Source of the DNA: Eubacteriales bacterium
Lineage (GTDB): Bacteria; Bacillota; Clostridia; Lachnospirales; Lachnospiraceae
Assembly (NCBI GenBank): GCA_030536855.1
Contig: JAUNPK010000003.1
Location: 1 to 64,000, forward strand
Direction: 5' to 3'
DNA length: 64,000 nt
Below the pieces are notes generated by a model that worked only from the letters and a program-made list of their open reading frames with translations, was not told the DNA's origin and did not search any database. This document shows, piece by piece, positions 42,845 to 50,306 of this stretch (position 1 is the first letter of the stretch; the number at the start of each line of letters is the position of its first letter). A program made the translations under genes and the position numbers.

Positions 42845-42857
42845 GAGGAGACTGACT

Positions 42858-43619
42858 ATGATACTTGATTTATTTAAACTTGATGGAAAAGTGGCAATTG
42901 TTACCGGCGCCAATACAGGTCTCGGACAGGGAATGGCTGTTGCTCTTGCCCAGGCCGGAGCTAAGGTTGTGGGCGTTGCCAGGAGATCCTGTGAGGATAC
43001 AAGAAAATTAATAGAGAGGGATGGAGGATGCTTTACAGAAGTGATTGCCGACTTGTCATCCATGGAAGTTATTCCTTTAATCATTAATGGGGCACTTGAT
43101 GCTTATGGCAGAGTTGACATTCTTGTTAATAATGCAGGAATAATTAAGAGAGAGGATGCTATTGATTTTTCTGAGGAAAATTGGGACAGTGTAATTCAGG
43201 TTAACGAGAAAATGGTATTTTTCCTGAGTCAGGCATTTGCAAAACAGCTTATTAAGCAGAATGAGGGCGGTAAGATTATCAACGTATGCTCTATGCTCTC
43301 ATATCAGGGTGGAATAAGGGTGCCATCTTACACGGCAAGTAAAAGTGCGGTTATGGGTCTTACAAAGGCTATGGCTAATGAATGGGCGCAGTATAATATT
43401 AATGTTAATGCCATAGCTCCTGGTTATATGGCAACCAATAATACAGCACAGCTTAGGGCTGATTCTGACAGAAGTGAGGCAATTATCGACAGAATACCTG
43501 CGGGAAGATGGGGAACACCTGACGATATGAAGGGTGCTGTAGTTTATCTTGCATCAGATGCTTCAAGCTATGTGAATGGATTTACCATTGCAGTAGATGG
43601 AGGATGGCTGGGAAGATAA
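42858..43619 (+). CDS. kduD: Short-chain dehydrogenase, KduD-like
   Basis: A 253-residue SDR enzyme. TGANTGLGQG binds the nucleotide, NNAG follows, and the catalytic set is Ser in NVCSMLSYQGG with YTASK. The closest pattern is KduD, 2-dehydro-3-deoxy-D-gluconate 5-dehydrogenase, which acts in pectin and polygalacturonate breakdown; gluconate 5-dehydrogenase is the main alternative. No kduI or other pectin gene adjoins it. GAGGAG precedes the ATG at 42858, and a terminator follows. Confidence 0.75.
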   Translation: MILDLFKLDGKVAIVTGANTGLGQGMAVALAQAGAKVVGVARRSCEDTRKLIERDGGCFTEVIADLSSMEVIPLIINGALDAYGRVDILVNNAGIIKREDAIDFSEENWDSVIQVNEKMVFFLSQAFAKQLIKQNEGGKIINVCSMLSYQGGIRVPSYTASKSAVMGLTKAMANEWAQYNINVNAIAPGYMATNNTAQLRADSDRSEAIIDRIPAGRWGTPDDMKGAVVYLASDASSYVNGFTIAVDGGWLGR

Positions 43620-43731: not shown

Positions 43732-43781
43732 TTTACCAATACTTTACCTGGAATTTACATTTGCAGGATATTAGATTTTAC
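43732..43781 (+). promoter_or_regulatory. Candidate PHO box upstream of pstS
   Basis: TTTACC (43732), TTTACC (43743) and TTTACA (43754) recur at exact 11-base spacing, with a weaker TTTTAC at 43776. Bacillus PhoP binds TT(A/T)ACA-like hexamers with five-base gaps, giving the same 11-base period. Likely target of the PhoB encoded in this operon. Confidence 0.7.
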
Positions 43782-43841: not shown

Positions 43842-44741
43842 ATGAGAAAAATCAGTTTAAAAAAATTTGCTGTAACTGCACTCAGTGTAGTATGCATGGC
43901 TGGAGCATTAATGGGATGCGGCAGTACAAATAGCGAGAAATCACAGGAAGATGGTGGTTCATTGGGTGAAATTGCAGTAATTTCAAGAGAAGATGGTTCA
44001 GGTACAAGGGGCGCTTTCATTGAGTTGTTCGGAGTAGAAAAGAAGGACGCTAATGGAAAGAAAGTTGACTATACAACTGAAGAGGCTTCAATTACAAATA
44101 GTACTGAAGTTATGATGACAACAGTTTCTGGAAACAAGGCAGCAATTGGATATACATCATTGGGCTCATTAAACAGTAATGTTAAGGCATTAAAGGTTGA
44201 TGGAGTTGAAGCTACAGCAGCTAACGTAAAGAGCGGTACATACAAGGCATCAAGACCATTTAACATTGTAACAAAAGATGGTTTGAGCGAAGCAGCAACA
44301 GATTTTATGAATTATATGTTAAGCTCAGAGGGTCAGAAGATAGTTGAAGATAAAGGCTATATTTCAGAAGGCAACAATGGAGCATACAAGTCAAACGGTG
44401 CATCAGGTAAGGTTGTTGTAGCTGGTTCTTCATCTGTAACTCCTGTTATGGAAAAGCTTGCAGAAGCATATAAGAAGGTTAACAGCAACGTAACTGTTGA
44501 GATTCAGCAGTCTGATTCAACAACAGGTGTTACAAAGGCAATTGAGGGTACATGCGATATTGGTATGGCTTCAAGAGCATTAAAGGATACTGAAACAGCT
44601 AAGGGAGTTAAAGGTACAAAGATTGCCCTTGACGGTATCGCTGTAATCGTCAACAACAGTAACTCACTTGAAAACATAACAACAGAACAGGTTATGAAAA
44701 TCTACACAGGCGAGATTACAGAATGGGATGACGTTAAATAA
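43842..44741 (+). CDS. pstS: Phosphate-binding lipoprotein PstS, halves in swapped order
   Basis: A 299-residue lipoprotein (lipobox cysteine C26, LMGC) that should capture phosphate for PstCAB. Its order differs from classical PstS: residues 42-178 carry the normally C-terminal half (VISREDGSGTRGAFIE at 47-61, AIGYTSLGSL, FMNYMLSSEGQKIV), and residues 188-299 carry the normally N-terminal half (KVVVAGSSSVTPVMEKL, QQSDSTTG, GTCDIGMASR, IALDGIAVIVN, YTGEITEWDDV). Both phosphate-site segments are intact. The ATG at 43842 has GGCGAGGA upstream; an earlier in-frame ATG at 43761 would precede the signal peptide and is rejected. First gene of the pst-pho block. Confidence 0.9.
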   Translation: MRKISLKKFAVTALSVVCMAGALMGCGSTNSEKSQEDGGSLGEIAVISREDGSGTRGAFIELFGVEKKDANGKKVDYTTEEASITNSTEVMMTTVSGNKAAIGYTSLGSLNSNVKALKVDGVEATAANVKSGTYKASRPFNIVTKDGLSEAATDFMNYMLSSEGQKIVEDKGYISEGNNGAYKSNGASGKVVVAGSSSVTPVMEKLAEAYKKVNSNVTVEIQQSDSTTGVTKAIEGTCDIGMASRALKDTETAKGVKGTKIALDGIAVIVNNSNSLENITTEQVMKIYTGEITEWDDVK

Positions 44742-44818
44742 TTAAAAATTCCTGATAATAATTTCGACATAAGACAATCAACAGTTTTTAATAATCAAAT
44801 AATACCCACCTTAAGAAG

Positions 44819-44851
44819 AGCACAGTATGGCCTCCCCTGACCTACTGTGCT
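44819..44851 (+). terminator. Hairpin between pstS and pstC
   Basis: AGCACAGTA (44819-44827) pairs with TACTGTGCT (44843-44851). There is no T tract, so it may stabilise the pstS message or partly stop transcription, as is common where pstS is made in excess. Confidence 0.6.
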
Positions 44852-44890
44852 AACTTCAATAATTCACAAAAAATTTATAATTTTTTAATG

Positions 44891-44923
44891 GAATTTTAAT
44901 GGGGTCTGACCCCATTAAAATTC
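44891..44923. repeat. 33-base palindrome with GGGGTCTGACCCC core
   Basis: GAATTTTAATGGGGTC is followed by one base and its perfect reverse complement. The GGGGTC-GACCCC core recurs in the hairpin after phoR (50316-50393). It lies 20 bases before the pstC start. Confidence 0.85.
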
Positions 44924-44943
44924 TATAAAAAAGGAGATCAACT

Positions 44944-45801
44944 ATGAAAAAAGCTCATTTTAAAGAGAAGTTAATGGAAATAGTTTTCCTTATTTGTGCC
45001 TGTGTATCGATTTTTTCGGTTGTATTAATATGTGTGTTTCTTTTTGCCAACGGTGTTCCGGCTATGTCAAAAATAGGATTTTTTGATTTTCTTCTTGGTA
45101 AGACGTGGAAACCGGGAAATGATATATATGGCATTTTCCCTATGATATTAGGAAGTATATATGTTACTGCAGGAGCGATAATTATAGGAGTTCCTATAGG
45201 TATTCTTACAGCAGTGTATCTTGCAAAGTTTTGCCCTGAAAAAATATATAAAATTCTGAAGCCGGCTGTAGATTTGCTGGCCGGAATTCCTTCGGTAGTT
45301 TATGGTTTTTTTGGACTATGCGTTATTGTTCCATTTGTAAGAGACAATTTTGGAGGGAACGGTGACAGTATTCTGACAGCATCAATTCTTCTTGGATTTA
45401 TGATTCTGCCTACAATTATAAATGTTTCCGAATCATCTATAAGAGCGGTGCCTGAGAAGTATTATCAAGGTTCTCTTGCATTAGGAGCGACCCACGAAAG
45501 AAGCGTATATAGGACAGTGGTTCCTGCAGCTAAGTCAGGAATTATGGCGGGAGTTGTGTTAGGTGTCGGAAGAGCCATCGGAGAGACCATGGCAGTAATT
45601 ATGGTTGCGGGAAACCAGCCAAGAATGCCAAAGGGATTATTAAAAGGTATAAGAACACTTACATCTAATATTGTAATTGAGATGGGCTATGCTACAGACC
45701 TTCACAGAGAAGCGCTTATTGCAACAGGTGTAGTGCTTTTTGTATTTATTCTCATAATTAACACCTTATTCTCTATATTGAAGAGAAGGGAGGCTAAGTA
45801 A
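44944..45801 (+). CDS. pstC: Phosphate ABC transporter permease PstC
   Basis: A 285-residue inner permease with six membrane segments. The cytoplasmic EAA loop is visible near SLALGATHERSVYRTVVPAAKSGIMAG, and DLLAGIPSVVYGFFG is typical of phosphate permeases. AAGGAG precedes the ATG. It ends two bases before pstA, so the pair is coupled. Confidence 0.95.
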   Translation: MKKAHFKEKLMEIVFLICACVSIFSVVLICVFLFANGVPAMSKIGFFDFLLGKTWKPGNDIYGIFPMILGSIYVTAGAIIIGVPIGILTAVYLAKFCPEKIYKILKPAVDLLAGIPSVVYGFFGLCVIVPFVRDNFGGNGDSILTASILLGFMILPTIINVSESSIRAVPEKYYQGSLALGATHERSVYRTVVPAAKSGIMAGVVLGVGRAIGETMAVIMVAGNQPRMPKGLLKGIRTLTSNIVIEMGYATDLHREALIATGVVLFVFILIINTLFSILKRREAK

Positions 45802-45802
45802 G

Positions 45803-46654
45803 ATGAAGGATTTTAAAACTAAGCTTAATACATACTTGAAACATCCGGGTTCATTGGCTATATACCTCGTAACACATTTGGCGGCAATACTCACAGTAGT
45901 AGCTCTTGGCTTTCTTATAATATATATATTGGTAAGGGGAATCCCCTACCTAAGACCAAGTTTATTTGCTTGGAATTACAATTCAGAAAATGTATCTTTA
46001 ATGCCATCATTGATTAATACAATTCTCCTAACGATGTTAGCTTTAATTATTGCAGCACCATTGGGGATTTTTGCAGCCATATATATGGTGGAATACGCAA
46101 AAAAAGGTAATAAAATCGTCGGTATCGTAAGAATAACCGCAGAAACACTTTCAGGTATTCCTTCAATTGTTTATGGCTTGTTCGGAATGTTATTTTTTGT
46201 TACAGCATTAAAATTGCAGTTATCTATTCTTTCCGGTGCATTGACTGTGGCAATTATGGTTCTTCCCACAATTATGAGAACTACAGAGGAAGCTCTTTTA
46301 GCGGTACCTGATAGTTTCAGGGAGGGCAGCTTCGGACTTGGTGCCGGCAAACTAAGAACGGTTTTTAAGGTGGTATTACCATCTGCAGTGCCGGGAATTC
46401 TCTCAGGAGTTATTCTAGCAACAGGAAGAATAGTAGGTGAAACAGCTGCACTTATCTACACTGCGGGTACGGTTGCCAGAGTCCCTGAAAATATATTCAG
46501 TTCCACAAGAACACTTTCGGTTCATATGTATATGCTTTCAGGAGAAGGATTTAACACCAATCAGGCTTACGCTACAGCAGTGGTGCTTTTGGTACTTGTT
46601 ATATTTATTAATATGTTATCTAAAGTTGTAGCATCAAAACTATCTGCAAAATAA
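45803..46654 (+). CDS. pstA: Phosphate ABC transporter permease PstA
   Basis: A 283-residue permease with six membrane segments, partner of Pst[16 protein letters not shown] and the EAA loop with [19 protein letters not shown] match PstA. It lies between pstC and pstB in the usual order. Confidence 0.95.
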
Positions 46655-46700
46655 AATTTATAATGGTTATGCACGGAAAATGTGCAGAATGGAGATTAGT

Positions 46701-47477
46701 ATGGAACAAAACGGAGTTTCAAAATTTCATATAAAAGATTTAAATTTACATTATGGAGACTTTCATGCATTGAAGAATATTAATATGGAGATTCCTGAAA
46801 AGCAGATAACTGCGTTTATCGGACCTTCAGGTTGCGGAAAGTCCACATTTTTAAAGTCCCTTAACAGAATGAATGATTTAGTTGAAGGATGTAAAATTGA
46901 AGGAGAAATCCATCTTAATGGAGAAAAAGGGTTTGAGGATGTGTATGGGAGCATGGATGTTAACATGCTTAGAAAGAGAGTTGGAATGGTGTTCCAGCAG
47001 CCAAATCCGTTTCCAATGAGTATATATGACAATATTGCCTATGGACCAAGAACTCATGGTATCCGCAATAAAAGCCAGCTTGACGCCATTGTGGAAAGCT
47101 CACTGAAAAAAGCGGCAATATGGGATGAGGTTAAGGACAGACTTAAAAAATCTGCACTGGGAATGTCAGGAGGGCAGCAACAGAGATTGTGCATTGCACG
47201 TGCATTGGCAGTTGAGCCGGAAGTAATTCTTATGGATGAGCCTACATCAGCTCTTGACCCTATTTCAACTTCAAGAATCGAAGATCTGGCAGTGGAACTT
47301 AAAGATAATTACACAATAATAATGGTTACACATAATATGCAACAGGCAACCAGAATTTCTGATAACACAGCATTTTTCCTGTTGGGAGAAATGATTGAGT
47401 ATGATAAAACAGAGAAATTGTTCTCGGTACCTCAGAATAAAAAGACAGAAGATTATATTACAGGTAGATTTGGTTAA
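46701..47477 (+). CDS. pstB: Phosphate ABC transporter ATPase PstB
   Basis: The 258-residue ATPase that powers PstCA. Walker [10 protein letters not shown], the PstB-specific [14 protein letters not shown]-loop, signature [11 protein letters not shown] and Walker [14 protein letters not shown] are all present. The ATG at 46701 has GGAG seven bases upstream in AATGGAGATTAGTATG; in-frame ATG codons at 46680 and 46689 precede or overlap that site. Its last codons lie in a three-copy 16-base repeat. Confidence 0.96.
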
Positions 47478-47534: not shown

Positions 47535-48185
47535 ATGAGGAACAGATTTGACAGACAGTTATGTGAATTGAATGATGAACTTATTGAGATGGGAGAAATG
47601 ATAGAAAAAGCAATTGAACTGACGGTAGAGGCACTGGTTACGAAAAATGTAAACCTTGCCGAAGAGGCAATTGTATCGGATGATGACATAGACCATCAGG
47701 AAAAGAAAATTGAGCAGCTATGTCTTAAACTTTTGCTTCAGCAGCAGCCTGTGGCAAGGGATTTAAGACTGATATCTTCTGCTCTCAAGATGATTACAGA
47801 TATGGAAAGAATAGGGGATCATGCTACAGACATTTCAGAAATAACGATCGCCCTGGCTGACCAGCCATATATAAAGAAGCTTGAACATATACAGCAGATG
47901 GCTAAAGAAACAATGGTTATGCTGGTTGAAAGTATAGAGGCCTTTGTTAACAAGGACCTGAATAAGGCCAGAGCAGTTATAGAACATGATGATGTTGTTG
48001 ATGATTTGTTCAATACAGTAAAAAAAGAGCTGATAGGAATGATTCATGAAAATGTTGATTCAGGTGAGCAGGCTGCGGATCTTTTGATGGTCGCAAAATA
48101 TTTTGAGAGGATAGGAGACCATGCTACCAATATATCTGAATGGGTTATATTCTCAATCACAGGAGAACATGATAAAAAAAATTGA
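47535..48185 (+). CDS. phoU: Phosphate signalling protein PhoU
   Basis: A 216-residue all-helical protein that links the Pst transporter to the PhoR kinase and represses the regulon in high phosphate. The two PhoU repeats each carry the metal-binding E/D-x-x-x-D pattern, seen as DMERIGDHATDISE and KYFERIGDHATNISEW. AAGGAG precedes the ATG. Confidence 0.95.
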   Translation: MRNRFDRQLCELNDELIEMGEMIEKAIELTVEALVTKNVNLAEEAIVSDDDIDHQEKKIEQLCLKLLLQQQPVARDLRLISSALKMITDMERIGDHATDISEITIALADQPYIKKLEHIQQMAKETMVMLVESIEAFVNKDLNKARAVIEHDDVVDDLFNTVKKELIGMIHENVDSGEQAADLLMVAKYFERIGDHATNISEWVIFSITGEHDKKN

Positions 48186-48236: not shown

Positions 48237-48926
48237 ATGGCATATATATACGTTGTAGAAGACGATAAGAATATTAGTGAAATTGAGAGTTTTGCGTTGA
48301 AAAATGCAGGACATACAATTGTTGAGTGTGCAAGCGGAAAGGAATTTCATAAGTTAATGAGAGACCGTATTCCGGACCTTGTGTTACTTGATATTATGCT
48401 TCCTGATGAAGATGGACTTGATATATTAAAAAAGATTCGTCAGACACCGGAAACAAGGAGGGTTCCTGTAATCATGGTTACGGCTAAGACGTCTGAAATT
48501 GATAAGGTAAAGGGACTGGATCTTGGGGCTGATGACTACATTACCAAGCCTTTTGGTGTTATGGAATTAATCTCCCGAGTTAAGGCACTGTTACGAAGAG
48601 CAGGTGGAAGTGGAGAGGAAAAGCTTATCGGAATCGGTAAACTTTTTATTGATGATGAGAAGAGAGTGGCATATGTGGATGATAATGCCATAGAACTTAC
48701 CTTTAAAGAATATGAGCTTCTTAAATACCTTGCTCTTAACAGAGGAATTGTTCTCACCAGAGACAATATTATGGATAGAATCTGGAGCACGGACTATGAG
48801 GGAGAATCAAGAACTTTGGATGTGCATATAAAGACGTTAAGGCATAAGCTGGGAAGCGCCGGAAATTATATCAGAACAGTCAGAAATGTGGGATATTTTC
48901 TGGATGATGAGAATGCAGGGAAATAA
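48237..48926 (+). CDS. phoB: Phosphate-regulon response regulator, PhoB/PhoP type
   Basis: A 229-residue OmpR-family regulator. The receiver has D52 in LLDIMLPDEDG and the KPF switch lysine; the C-terminal winged helix has FTFKEYELLKYL-like (LTFKEYELL) and SRTLDVHIKTLRHKLG. Its place in the pst operon, before phoR, marks it as the phosphate regulator. It probably binds the repeats upstream of pstS. Confidence 0.93.
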   Translation: MAYIYVVEDDKNISEIESFALKNAGHTIVECASGKEFHKLMRDRIPDLVLLDIMLPDEDGLDILKKIRQTPETRRVPVIMVTAKTSEIDKVKGLDLGADDYITKPFGVMELISRVKALLRRAGGSGEEKLIGIGKLFIDDEKRVAYVDDNAIELTFKEYELLKYLALNRGIVLTRDNIMDRIWSTDYEGESRTLDVHIKTLRHKLGSAGNYIRTVRNVGYFLDDENAGK

Positions 48927-48953: not shown

Positions 48954-50306
48954 ATGAAAAAAAGGATAAATTTGCAGTATATGATATTAACAACTGTTGC
49001 TATAATTGCAACAGCTGTTATGTTTACTGCGGTTTTTTATAATATTATAAAAAATGAGACGCTGACCGATTTGAGTAACTATACCGACGTTTTAGTGTCA
49101 TCCGATGCCTGGGGGATAGTTTCAAACCCTGAGAGTATAGATGATAAAAATGTTACGGCGAATTATTGTGGTGAAATAAGAATTACGCTTGTGAATGACA
49201 AGGGTGTGGCTCTGCTGGATACCGAGGTGGATGCCTACAGTATGGAGAATCACAAAGAGAGACCGGAAATTATGCAGGCTTTTAATGAGGGTAAGGGTAA
49301 GGCTATAAGAAAATCCAAAACGGTACAAAAAGATGCTTTATACTATGCGGTTTTGCTTGATAACGGTTGTGTATTAAGGGCTTCAAAGGAAGTAAGCAAC
49401 ATGACAAGTCTTCTTATTAGTTCGTTGCCGGTAACGGGAGCTCTTTGCGTCGTTTTATTTATGATATGTGGTGTGTTTTCTCATTTCCTGACAAAAAGTA
49501 TTGTTGAACCTATTGAGTTTCTTGCACGAAATATGGATGCGCCTGAATCGGTTAAGGTTTACAAGGAACTTGTTCCTTTTGTCACAACTATCCGCAGACA
49601 ACATGAGGATATAATGAAAAATGCTAATATGAGACAGGAGTTTACCGCAAATGTCTCCCATGAGCTAAAGACACCATTGACTTCAATATCGGGATATTCT
49701 GAACTTATTGAGAATGGGATGGCAACAGGTGAGGATATTACCAGATTTGCAGGTGAAATTCATAAGAGTTCCAAGAGACTACTCACACTTATTAACGATA
49801 TTATCCGTATTTCCGAACTTGATGCCACTTCAATTGATGAGAGTTTTGAAAAAGTTAATCTGTATGACGTGGCAAAAAGCTGTGTTGAAATGTTATCACT
49901 TAATGCTGAAAAGAATAATATTAATGTAAGTGTTACCGGGGAAGATGTATATGTATCGGCAAACGCCCAGATGATGGAAGAACTTATATATAATTTGTGT
50001 GATAATGCAATCAGATACAACAATGATGGTGGAAAAGTTGACGTTATTGTGAAACACTACGAGAAAAATGGAAAAGAAGGAAGTATGGTTCAGGTTTCTG
50101 ATAATGGAATAGGAATATCCAAAGAAAATCAGGAACGTATATTTGAGCGATTCTACAGAGTAGACAAGAGCAGATCCAAGTCTACAGGAGGAACCGGACT
50201 TGGTCTTGCCATTGTGAAACATATTATTGCAAAACATCCTGATGCCCATATAGAGCTGGAGAGCGAAGAGGGTAAAGGAACAACAATCAGAGTGATATTT
50301 TGTTGA
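48954..50306 (+). CDS. phoR: Phosphate-regulon sensor kinase PhoR
   Basis: A 450-residue sensor with two membrane segments (about 10-32 and 153-176) around a ~120-residue extracellular loop, a short linker, and the kinase core: H236 in NVSHELKTPL, N box LCDNAIRYN, DNGIGI, FYRVDKSRS and GTGLGLAIV. It phosphorylates the neighbouring regulator. Last gene of the phosphate block, followed by a very long hairpin. Confidence 0.93.
   Translation: MKKRINLQYMILTTVAIIATAVMFTAVFYNIIKNETLTDLSNYTDVLVSSDAWGIVSNPESIDDKNVTANYCGEIRITLVNDKGVALLDTEVDAYSMENHKERPEIMQAFNEGKGKAIRKSKTVQKDALYYAVLLDNGCVLRASKEVSNMTSLLISSLPVTGALCVVLFMICGVFSHFLTKSIVEPIEFLARNMDAPESVKVYKELVPFVTTIRRQHEDIMKNANMRQEFTANVSHELKTPLTSISGYSELIENGMATGEDITRFAGEIHKSSKRLLTLINDIIRISELDATSIDESFEKVNLYDVAKSCVEMLSLNAEKNNINVSVTGEDVYVSANAQMMEELIYNLCDNAIRYNNDGGKVDVIVKHYEKNGKEGSMVQVSDNGIGISKENQERIFERFYRVDKSRSKSTGGTGLGLAIVKHIIAKHPDAHIELESEEGKGTTIRVIFC

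Follow-up and report, generated by a model that had tools for sequence, protein, structure and literature searches.

A PstS phosphate-binding lipoprotein with its halves in swapped order in a complete pst operon, and a probable second, younger permutation in the same family of proteins

A naturally permuted binding protein is already known from Treponema pallidum. This protein, T. pallidum MglB-2 (Tp0684, TpMglB-2), is a glucose-binding lipoprotein described as permuted, "Type Ic," and the authors of that description raise a connection between the permutation and tethering (PMC4990184). The phosphate receptor PstS belongs to the type 2 binding fold (PMC12421899). In Streptococcus pneumoniae D39, either Pst1 or Pst2 suffices for the uptake of Pi at 1 mM, and in an unencapsulated D39 Pst1/Pst2 double mutant uptake is down by about half; at 200 μM, uptake is lowered by loss of Pst1 only, not of Pst2 (experiments cited from PMC4913102). 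Since loss of Pst2 did not lower uptake at 200 μM, the role of Pst2 there is not the low-phosphate one.

The window analyzed here is the whole stretch of 64,000 nucleotides (nts) from an assembly of a Eubacteriales bacterium of the Lachnospiraceae (GCA_030536855.1, contig JAUNPK010000003.1, positions 1 to 64,000, forward strand). An open frame on the + strand at 43842-44741, running from ATG to TAA, encodes a lipoprotein of 299 residues, which we call the window PstS. A search of the genome that it comes from (2.4 Mb in 54 contigs, 99% complete) gave no match at E 0.001 other than the protein itself. The parts of the gene are as follows.

43842..44741, + strand: permuted pstS, encoding the 299-residue lipoprotein (basis, the frame and the profile and PDB matches)
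43842..43919, + strand: signal peptide with a lipobox-like end and Cys26 (read from the sequence)
43965..44369, + strand: C-terminal half of canonical PstS (residues 42-176), which carries the SREDGSGTR phosphate loop (half profile from the alignment)
44370..44399, + strand: linker between the former C terminus and the former N terminus, residues ∼177-186 (half-profile boundaries)
44400..44732, + strand: canonical N-terminal half, residues 187-297, with AGSSSVTP (profile, PDB, and half-profile matches)

The segment SREDGSGTRGAF lies at residues 48-59 and VVAGSSSVTP at residues 192-201. These positions and the continuous frame are as the first-pass annotation had given them. It had also placed a short linker at residues 179-188; the short linker stands, and the half-profile boundaries move it to about 177-186.

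Pfam PF12849 matched the window PstS in two swapped stretches (5.9e-39; 134.9 bits against a gathering threshold of 27), as did TIGR02136 (1.4e-57), and with both profiles the end of the protein matched the start of the profile. As encoded, the protein scored 195.1 bits against TIGR02136, which is under the cut-off of 206.6. When it was rotated, with the signal peptide left off, TIGR02136 matched in a single stretch with 213.2 bits, above the cut-off, over profile positions 34-294 of 295; the cut-off is no clean test of order, as the canonical PstS of locus L255 is also below it (187.9 bits, one stretch). Because the window PstS passes TIGR02136 only when rotated, some such genes may be under-named. 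Canonical PDB chains, 4q8r for example, also matched in two swapped stretches, and PDB 4h1x ("Phosphate-binding protein pstS 2") was colinear with window residues 40-299 in one stretch (E 2.7e-65). These matches confirm, at the level of sequence, a complete PstS whose C-terminal half stands ahead of its N-terminal half, and they show the permutation to be real, a swap of halves with the old ends joined. The annotation had called a circularly permuted PstS, and the swapped stretches that become one continuous TIGR02136 match on rotation bear this out; the match in the order as encoded did not equal the rotated one at the sequence level (195.1 versus 213.2 bits). The half order is not unique to the window, since the solved chain 4h1x, by its alignment, already has it. 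We found no description of a permuted PstS in the open literature searched, which has most subscription papers outside it. The annotation's statement that the permutation is undescribed holds within that literature, but the order itself is already present in 4h1x.

Alignment to 4q8r placed the break at chain positions ∼112-119, just ahead of the strand with Val123 and Arg125: window residue 297 aligned with 4q8r position 112, and Ile47 and Arg49 aligned with Val123 and Arg125. According to the structural description in PMC12421899, the strand carrying Val123 is beta 9, in the C-terminal domain and past the hinge; the protein of that paper has its C-terminal domain at 112-278 and its hinge at 102-117. 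Because the break precedes beta 9, and beta 9 belongs to the C-terminal domain, the cut would fall in a loop of lobe II and not at the lobe crossover, where the first-pass annotation had put it. Both new termini lie in a single loop that immediately precedes the strand running to the SREDGSGTR phosphate loop. We infer that the two of them are in lobe II, that the joined old ends belong to lobe I, and that lipid anchoring has shifted from lobe I to lobe II.

The window pstS is the first gene of a cluster with the order pstS-pstC-pstA-pstB-phoU, and it is encoded together with PstC, PstA, PstB, and PhoU proteins that match four equivalog models above their cut-offs. The other features of the cluster and its noncoding elements are as follows.

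43732..43758, + strand: TTTAC repeated three times at 11-base spacing (the pattern matches once in the window and in none of 100 shuffles)
44888..44926, + strand: 18-bp hairpin between pstS and pstC (from the fold of the pstS-pstC gap; its core is recurrent in the genome)
44944..45801, + strand: pstC (TIGR02138, 305 bits, above cut-off)
45803..46654, + strand: pstA (TIGR00974, 265 bits, above cut-off)
46680..47477, + strand: pstB (TIGR00972, 416 bits, above cut-off)
47535..48185, + strand: phoU (TIGR02135, 217 bits, above cut-off)
48237..48926, + strand: phoB-like response regulator gene (best match TIGR02154, 223 bits, below the cut-off of 296)
48954..50306, + strand: phoR/pnpS-like histidine kinase gene (best match NF046044, PnpS, 246 bits, below the cut-off of 400)

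We take the TTTAC units at 43732..43758 to be Pho-box-like; a fourth TTTAC, at 43777-43781, was read directly from the sequence. The pstS-pstC gap (44742-44940) folds far better than its shuffles (z, −6.5) and has a second hairpin near 44820-44850; the fold might limit read-through, so that PstS would be made in excess. The palindrome core AATGGGGTCTGACCCCATT (44898-44916) has 14 exact copies in the genome, 8 forward and 6 reverse, and the reversed control pattern has none. This core is a repeated palindromic element that here lies between pstS and pstC. At gathering thresholds, Rfam gave no match on the window. Upstream of pstS, the gene at 42855-43619 matched KduD (TIGR01832, 399.9 bits, above cut-off) and has no evident link to phosphate uptake.

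Half profiles applied to 246 loci classed 180 open reading frames (ORFs) as C-N, 68 as N-C, and 4 as N-C-N-C (2 distinct proteins), with one fragment; because the loci were found mostly with permuted queries, 180 versus 68 ORFs does not give a prevalence. The fetched loci gave 167 distinct proteins of permuted order and 61 of canonical order. The permuted ones are built alike. The linker is 8-9 residues long in 142 of the 167, and the stop comes 1-3 residues past the N half in 150, between 1 residue before and 4 after it in 163, and 8-16 residues past it in 4. With 167 distinct sequences in the same order, neither chance nor a misassembly can account for the window gene. The open frame together with these sequences also ruled out reading it as frameshifted or as a pseudogene, and the annotation had likewise argued for permutation and not damage.

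The phosphate-contact residues were listed from PMC12421899 as far as it is cited here and mapped by motif, with the position of E. coli Asp56 left out. In the alignment columns, S196 and S244 are kept in 168/168 sequences; Ser or Thr occupies 197 and 226 in 168/168 and 198 in 167/168; and R49 and G54 are kept in 167/168 and T55 in 166/168. The contact residues of both lobes are present in the window PstS by the same columns, and the annotation's claim that both contact segments are intact agrees with the conservation of the mapped positions. Of the 161 permuted cases with 800 bases or more of flank, 153 have pstC or pstA as their next pst gene, and the other 8 have no pst gene within 1.5 kb downstream.

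Permuted relatives are common in the window's family and order, in line with the annotation's mention of similar proteins in Lachnospiraceae. Of 120 genomes sampled from the window's family, 41 had a permuted-order match spanning both halves, 44 more had partial matches only, and 35 had no match at E 0.001. The 80 named loci, all classed as permuted, come from Clostridia, Tissierellia, Granulicatella, Streptococcus azizii, and metagenome bins labelled Treponema, other spirochaetes, Slackia, and Helicobacteraceae (the last at L109 and L119); the permuted PstS of these bins may reflect transfer or binning error. At E 1e-4, S. azizii had one permuted and one canonical copy, and Peptoniphilus indolicus, Granulicatella seriolae, and Intestinimonas butyriciproducens had a permuted copy only. 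The family of S. azizii had a permuted match at E 1e-30 in 5 of 49 genomes. A scan of viral contigs with part of the window PstS found no relative.

Several loci depart from the common arrangement. In the window's own genus, L071 (G006) has a divergent canonical PstS, and no permuted one was seen there; the pst system thus differs within the genus. L037, L236, and L237 each have two permuted pstS genes (∼6 kb apart in L237), so duplication has also occurred after permutation. A second, divergent permuted pstS of G027 (L235:7487-8440) is broken by an in-frame stop.

To place the changes of order, we compared trees of PstS, with the halves brought into a common order, and of PstC. In a FastTree of all 232 PstS rows the order label needs two changes, and a canonical pair (L074/L076) is nested inside the permuted rows; one gain plus one loss would do as well. 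Mixture-model trees had 80, 83, and 82 rows, thinned from the 232 rows plus three later additions, with the long-branch L072 and L240 left out of all three and L257 left out of the 82-row tree. In the 80-row tree, all permuted rows except L063, from genome G168, fall into one clade (39 rows, 93/94). In the 83-row tree the main permuted clade has support of 95/94, and the divergent permuted L257 is also outside it. Of the PstS trees, only the mixture-model ones set the L063 group, in which L063 is joined with canonical proteins, beside the main permuted clade. A FastTree of 208 PstC rows also needs two changes of order, at the same place as in the PstS tree; 147 PstC proteins from permuted operons form one clade (93), sister to a group of five (100) that consists of four canonical members and L063. 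The PstC of L257 is inside the main clade, unlike its PstS in the 83-row tree. The PstS tree puts the canonical L260 next to the permuted clade with weak support (73/33), and the PstC tree puts it in the L063 group.

Genome G187, of the same family as G168, has a canonical PstS that is 64-67% identical to L063. The two operons are orthologous (PstC 75%, PstA 80%, and PstB 75% identical; pstC-pstA DNA about 72% identical) and have PstS in opposite orders. As encoded, the two PstS proteins match in two swapped pieces (184 and 152 bits); after rotation they match in one piece of 245 residues (321 bits). An approximately unbiased (AU) test in which the 40 permuted rows were held as a single clade rejected that arrangement (p, 3.7e-5; 130 log-likelihood units), with the tested group having been picked after the tree had been seen; without G187 the result had been borderline (p, 0.0504). 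A GG in the loop is found in 60 of 63 canonical proteins versus 5 of 167 permuted ones, and it is still there at the start of the mature G168 PstS. Because G168 PstS keeps the loop GG, canonical order is favored as the older state in that lineage. These trees and alignments are most readily read as an old permuted clade and a single younger case, G168. The younger case was seen in one genome, on one 9,643-base contig of the draft G168, and very likely represents a second, separate permutation at the same place in the protein.

Adjacent canonical pstS copies occur at L078, and fused N-C-N-C PstS proteins of 531 and 544 residues occur at L095 (G609) and L096 (G589). In the fused doubles two residues separate the matched halves, and each stands ahead of pstC; they come from two genomes of one genus, and none was seen in a third genome of their family (72% complete). 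Because they group with canonical PstS in the 80-row tree, they show only that the intermediate step is viable and not that this was the route taken. By such a route, pstS would be duplicated in tandem, the copies would fuse in frame, and the fused gene would lose its outer halves, which would leave the C-N order with the old ends linked. One such event would have taken place in the ancestor of the large operon lineage to which the window belongs, and another, more recent one most likely took place in the G168 lineage. The lipoprotein would still close as a two-lobed trap on phosphate and deliver it to PstC/PstA, with membrane anchoring via lobe II instead of lobe I.

The alternative to two origins is a single permutation before the main clade split from the G168/G187/G131/G184 group, followed by reversion of the canonical members there. 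That group is sister to the permuted clade, the nested pair L074/L076 in the 232-row FastTree would fit a reversion, and trees of the order label cannot tell gain from loss. With G187 beside G168, however, a single origin would take two or more reversals, or a reversal combined with a fresh permutation, and the reverted proteins would need to get back the loop GG that nearly all canonical ones have; we therefore regard it as improbable. We think it fairly likely that the order of the halves can be switched in place, with at least two independent permutations at the same loop of lobe II, in a working operon and via duplicated and fused copies, the younger with a canonical orthologue at ∼65% identity. 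That the order should be an assembly artefact or belong to a decaying gene is scarcely credible. Many of the genomes are drafts, but the 167 distinct sequences nearly all have the same cut and linker, and the order is also found in the isolates P. indolicus, I. butyriciproducens, and S. azizii and in a crystallized chain. An artefact is refuted for the main clade and could still apply to G168 alone.

We take 4h1x, from its PDB name, to be S. pneumoniae PstS2; the PDB name "pstS 1" belongs to 4exl/4lat. The latter entry is S. pneumoniae PstS1 in the account of PMC12421899. If pneumococcal PstS2 is the protein of 4h1x, then a permuted PstS supports transport. A different function, in which the permuted protein binds a ligand other than phosphate or serves as a sensor only while another protein does the uptake, has in its favor an Asp at 225, beside a contact serine, in 148 of 168 permuted sequences where 61 of 63 canonical ones have Gly. 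We nonetheless hold it to be very unlikely: the mapped contact positions are otherwise kept, the gene is in a full pst operon in a genome that has no second match, and pneumococcal Pst2 supports Pi uptake in the experiments cited from PMC4913102. Most likely the window protein works as a normal phosphate receptor whose chain connections are altered. As to cause, selection of the swap by membrane tethering, with the anchor moved to the other lobe as proposed for TpMglB-2, is a doubtful explanation. The permuted relatives of MglB-2 listed in the cited part of PMC4990184 are mostly from treponemes and Gram-positive bacteria and are probably tethered, and the named permuted PstS loci are mostly Gram-positive with a few spirochaetes. 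However, most proteins of either order carry a loosely defined lipobox pattern (156 of 167 permuted, 60 of 61 canonical), so tethering alone is no explanation. Taken as a whole, the evidence from sequence makes us quite confident that the window protein would be a working Pst phosphate receptor, a natural permutant of PstS that arose by duplication, fusion, and trimming, once in an ancestor and most likely again in G168.

To our knowledge, natural permutations are seldom caught with both a near relative in the old order and living possible intermediates. In the PstS family, neighboring duplicate genes and fused doubles occur together with a large clade of permuted proteins and with a permuted and canonical pair matched in orthologous operons. 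If the half order is indeed switchable, the younger case, which has a canonical orthologue, makes the cause and the cost of a permutation testable with the matched pair. As the anchor should move to the other lobe, the roles of tethering and lobe geometry in ABC import become testable as well.

Like the window PstS, TpMglB-2 is a natural circular permutant of the binding lipoprotein of an ABC transporter. It differs in being a Type I sugar binder of another fold class, in which the permutation adds a fourth hinge crossing, and the part of PMC4990184 cited here describes no canonical orthologue in a matching operon. The window PstS is not a Type Ic member (Type I fold, sugar binding), as the PstS profiles match it instead. 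The chain 4h1x has the same half order as the window PstS and is colinear with it over 259 residues at about 48% identity; its host is of another lineage. The pneumococcus has a second system, Pst1 (PMC4913102, as cited), whereas the window genome has no other match. The fused doubles L096/L095 (G589/G609) contain the same C1-N2 junction as permuted PstS but have four halves, N-C-N-C, and group with canonical PstS. Canonical PstS (4q8r/4gd5, TIGR02136) shares with the window PstS its halves, its contact segments, and its operon; the two differ in the order of the halves and, by alignment, in where the chain ends, which is lobe I in canonical PstS and lobe II in the window protein.
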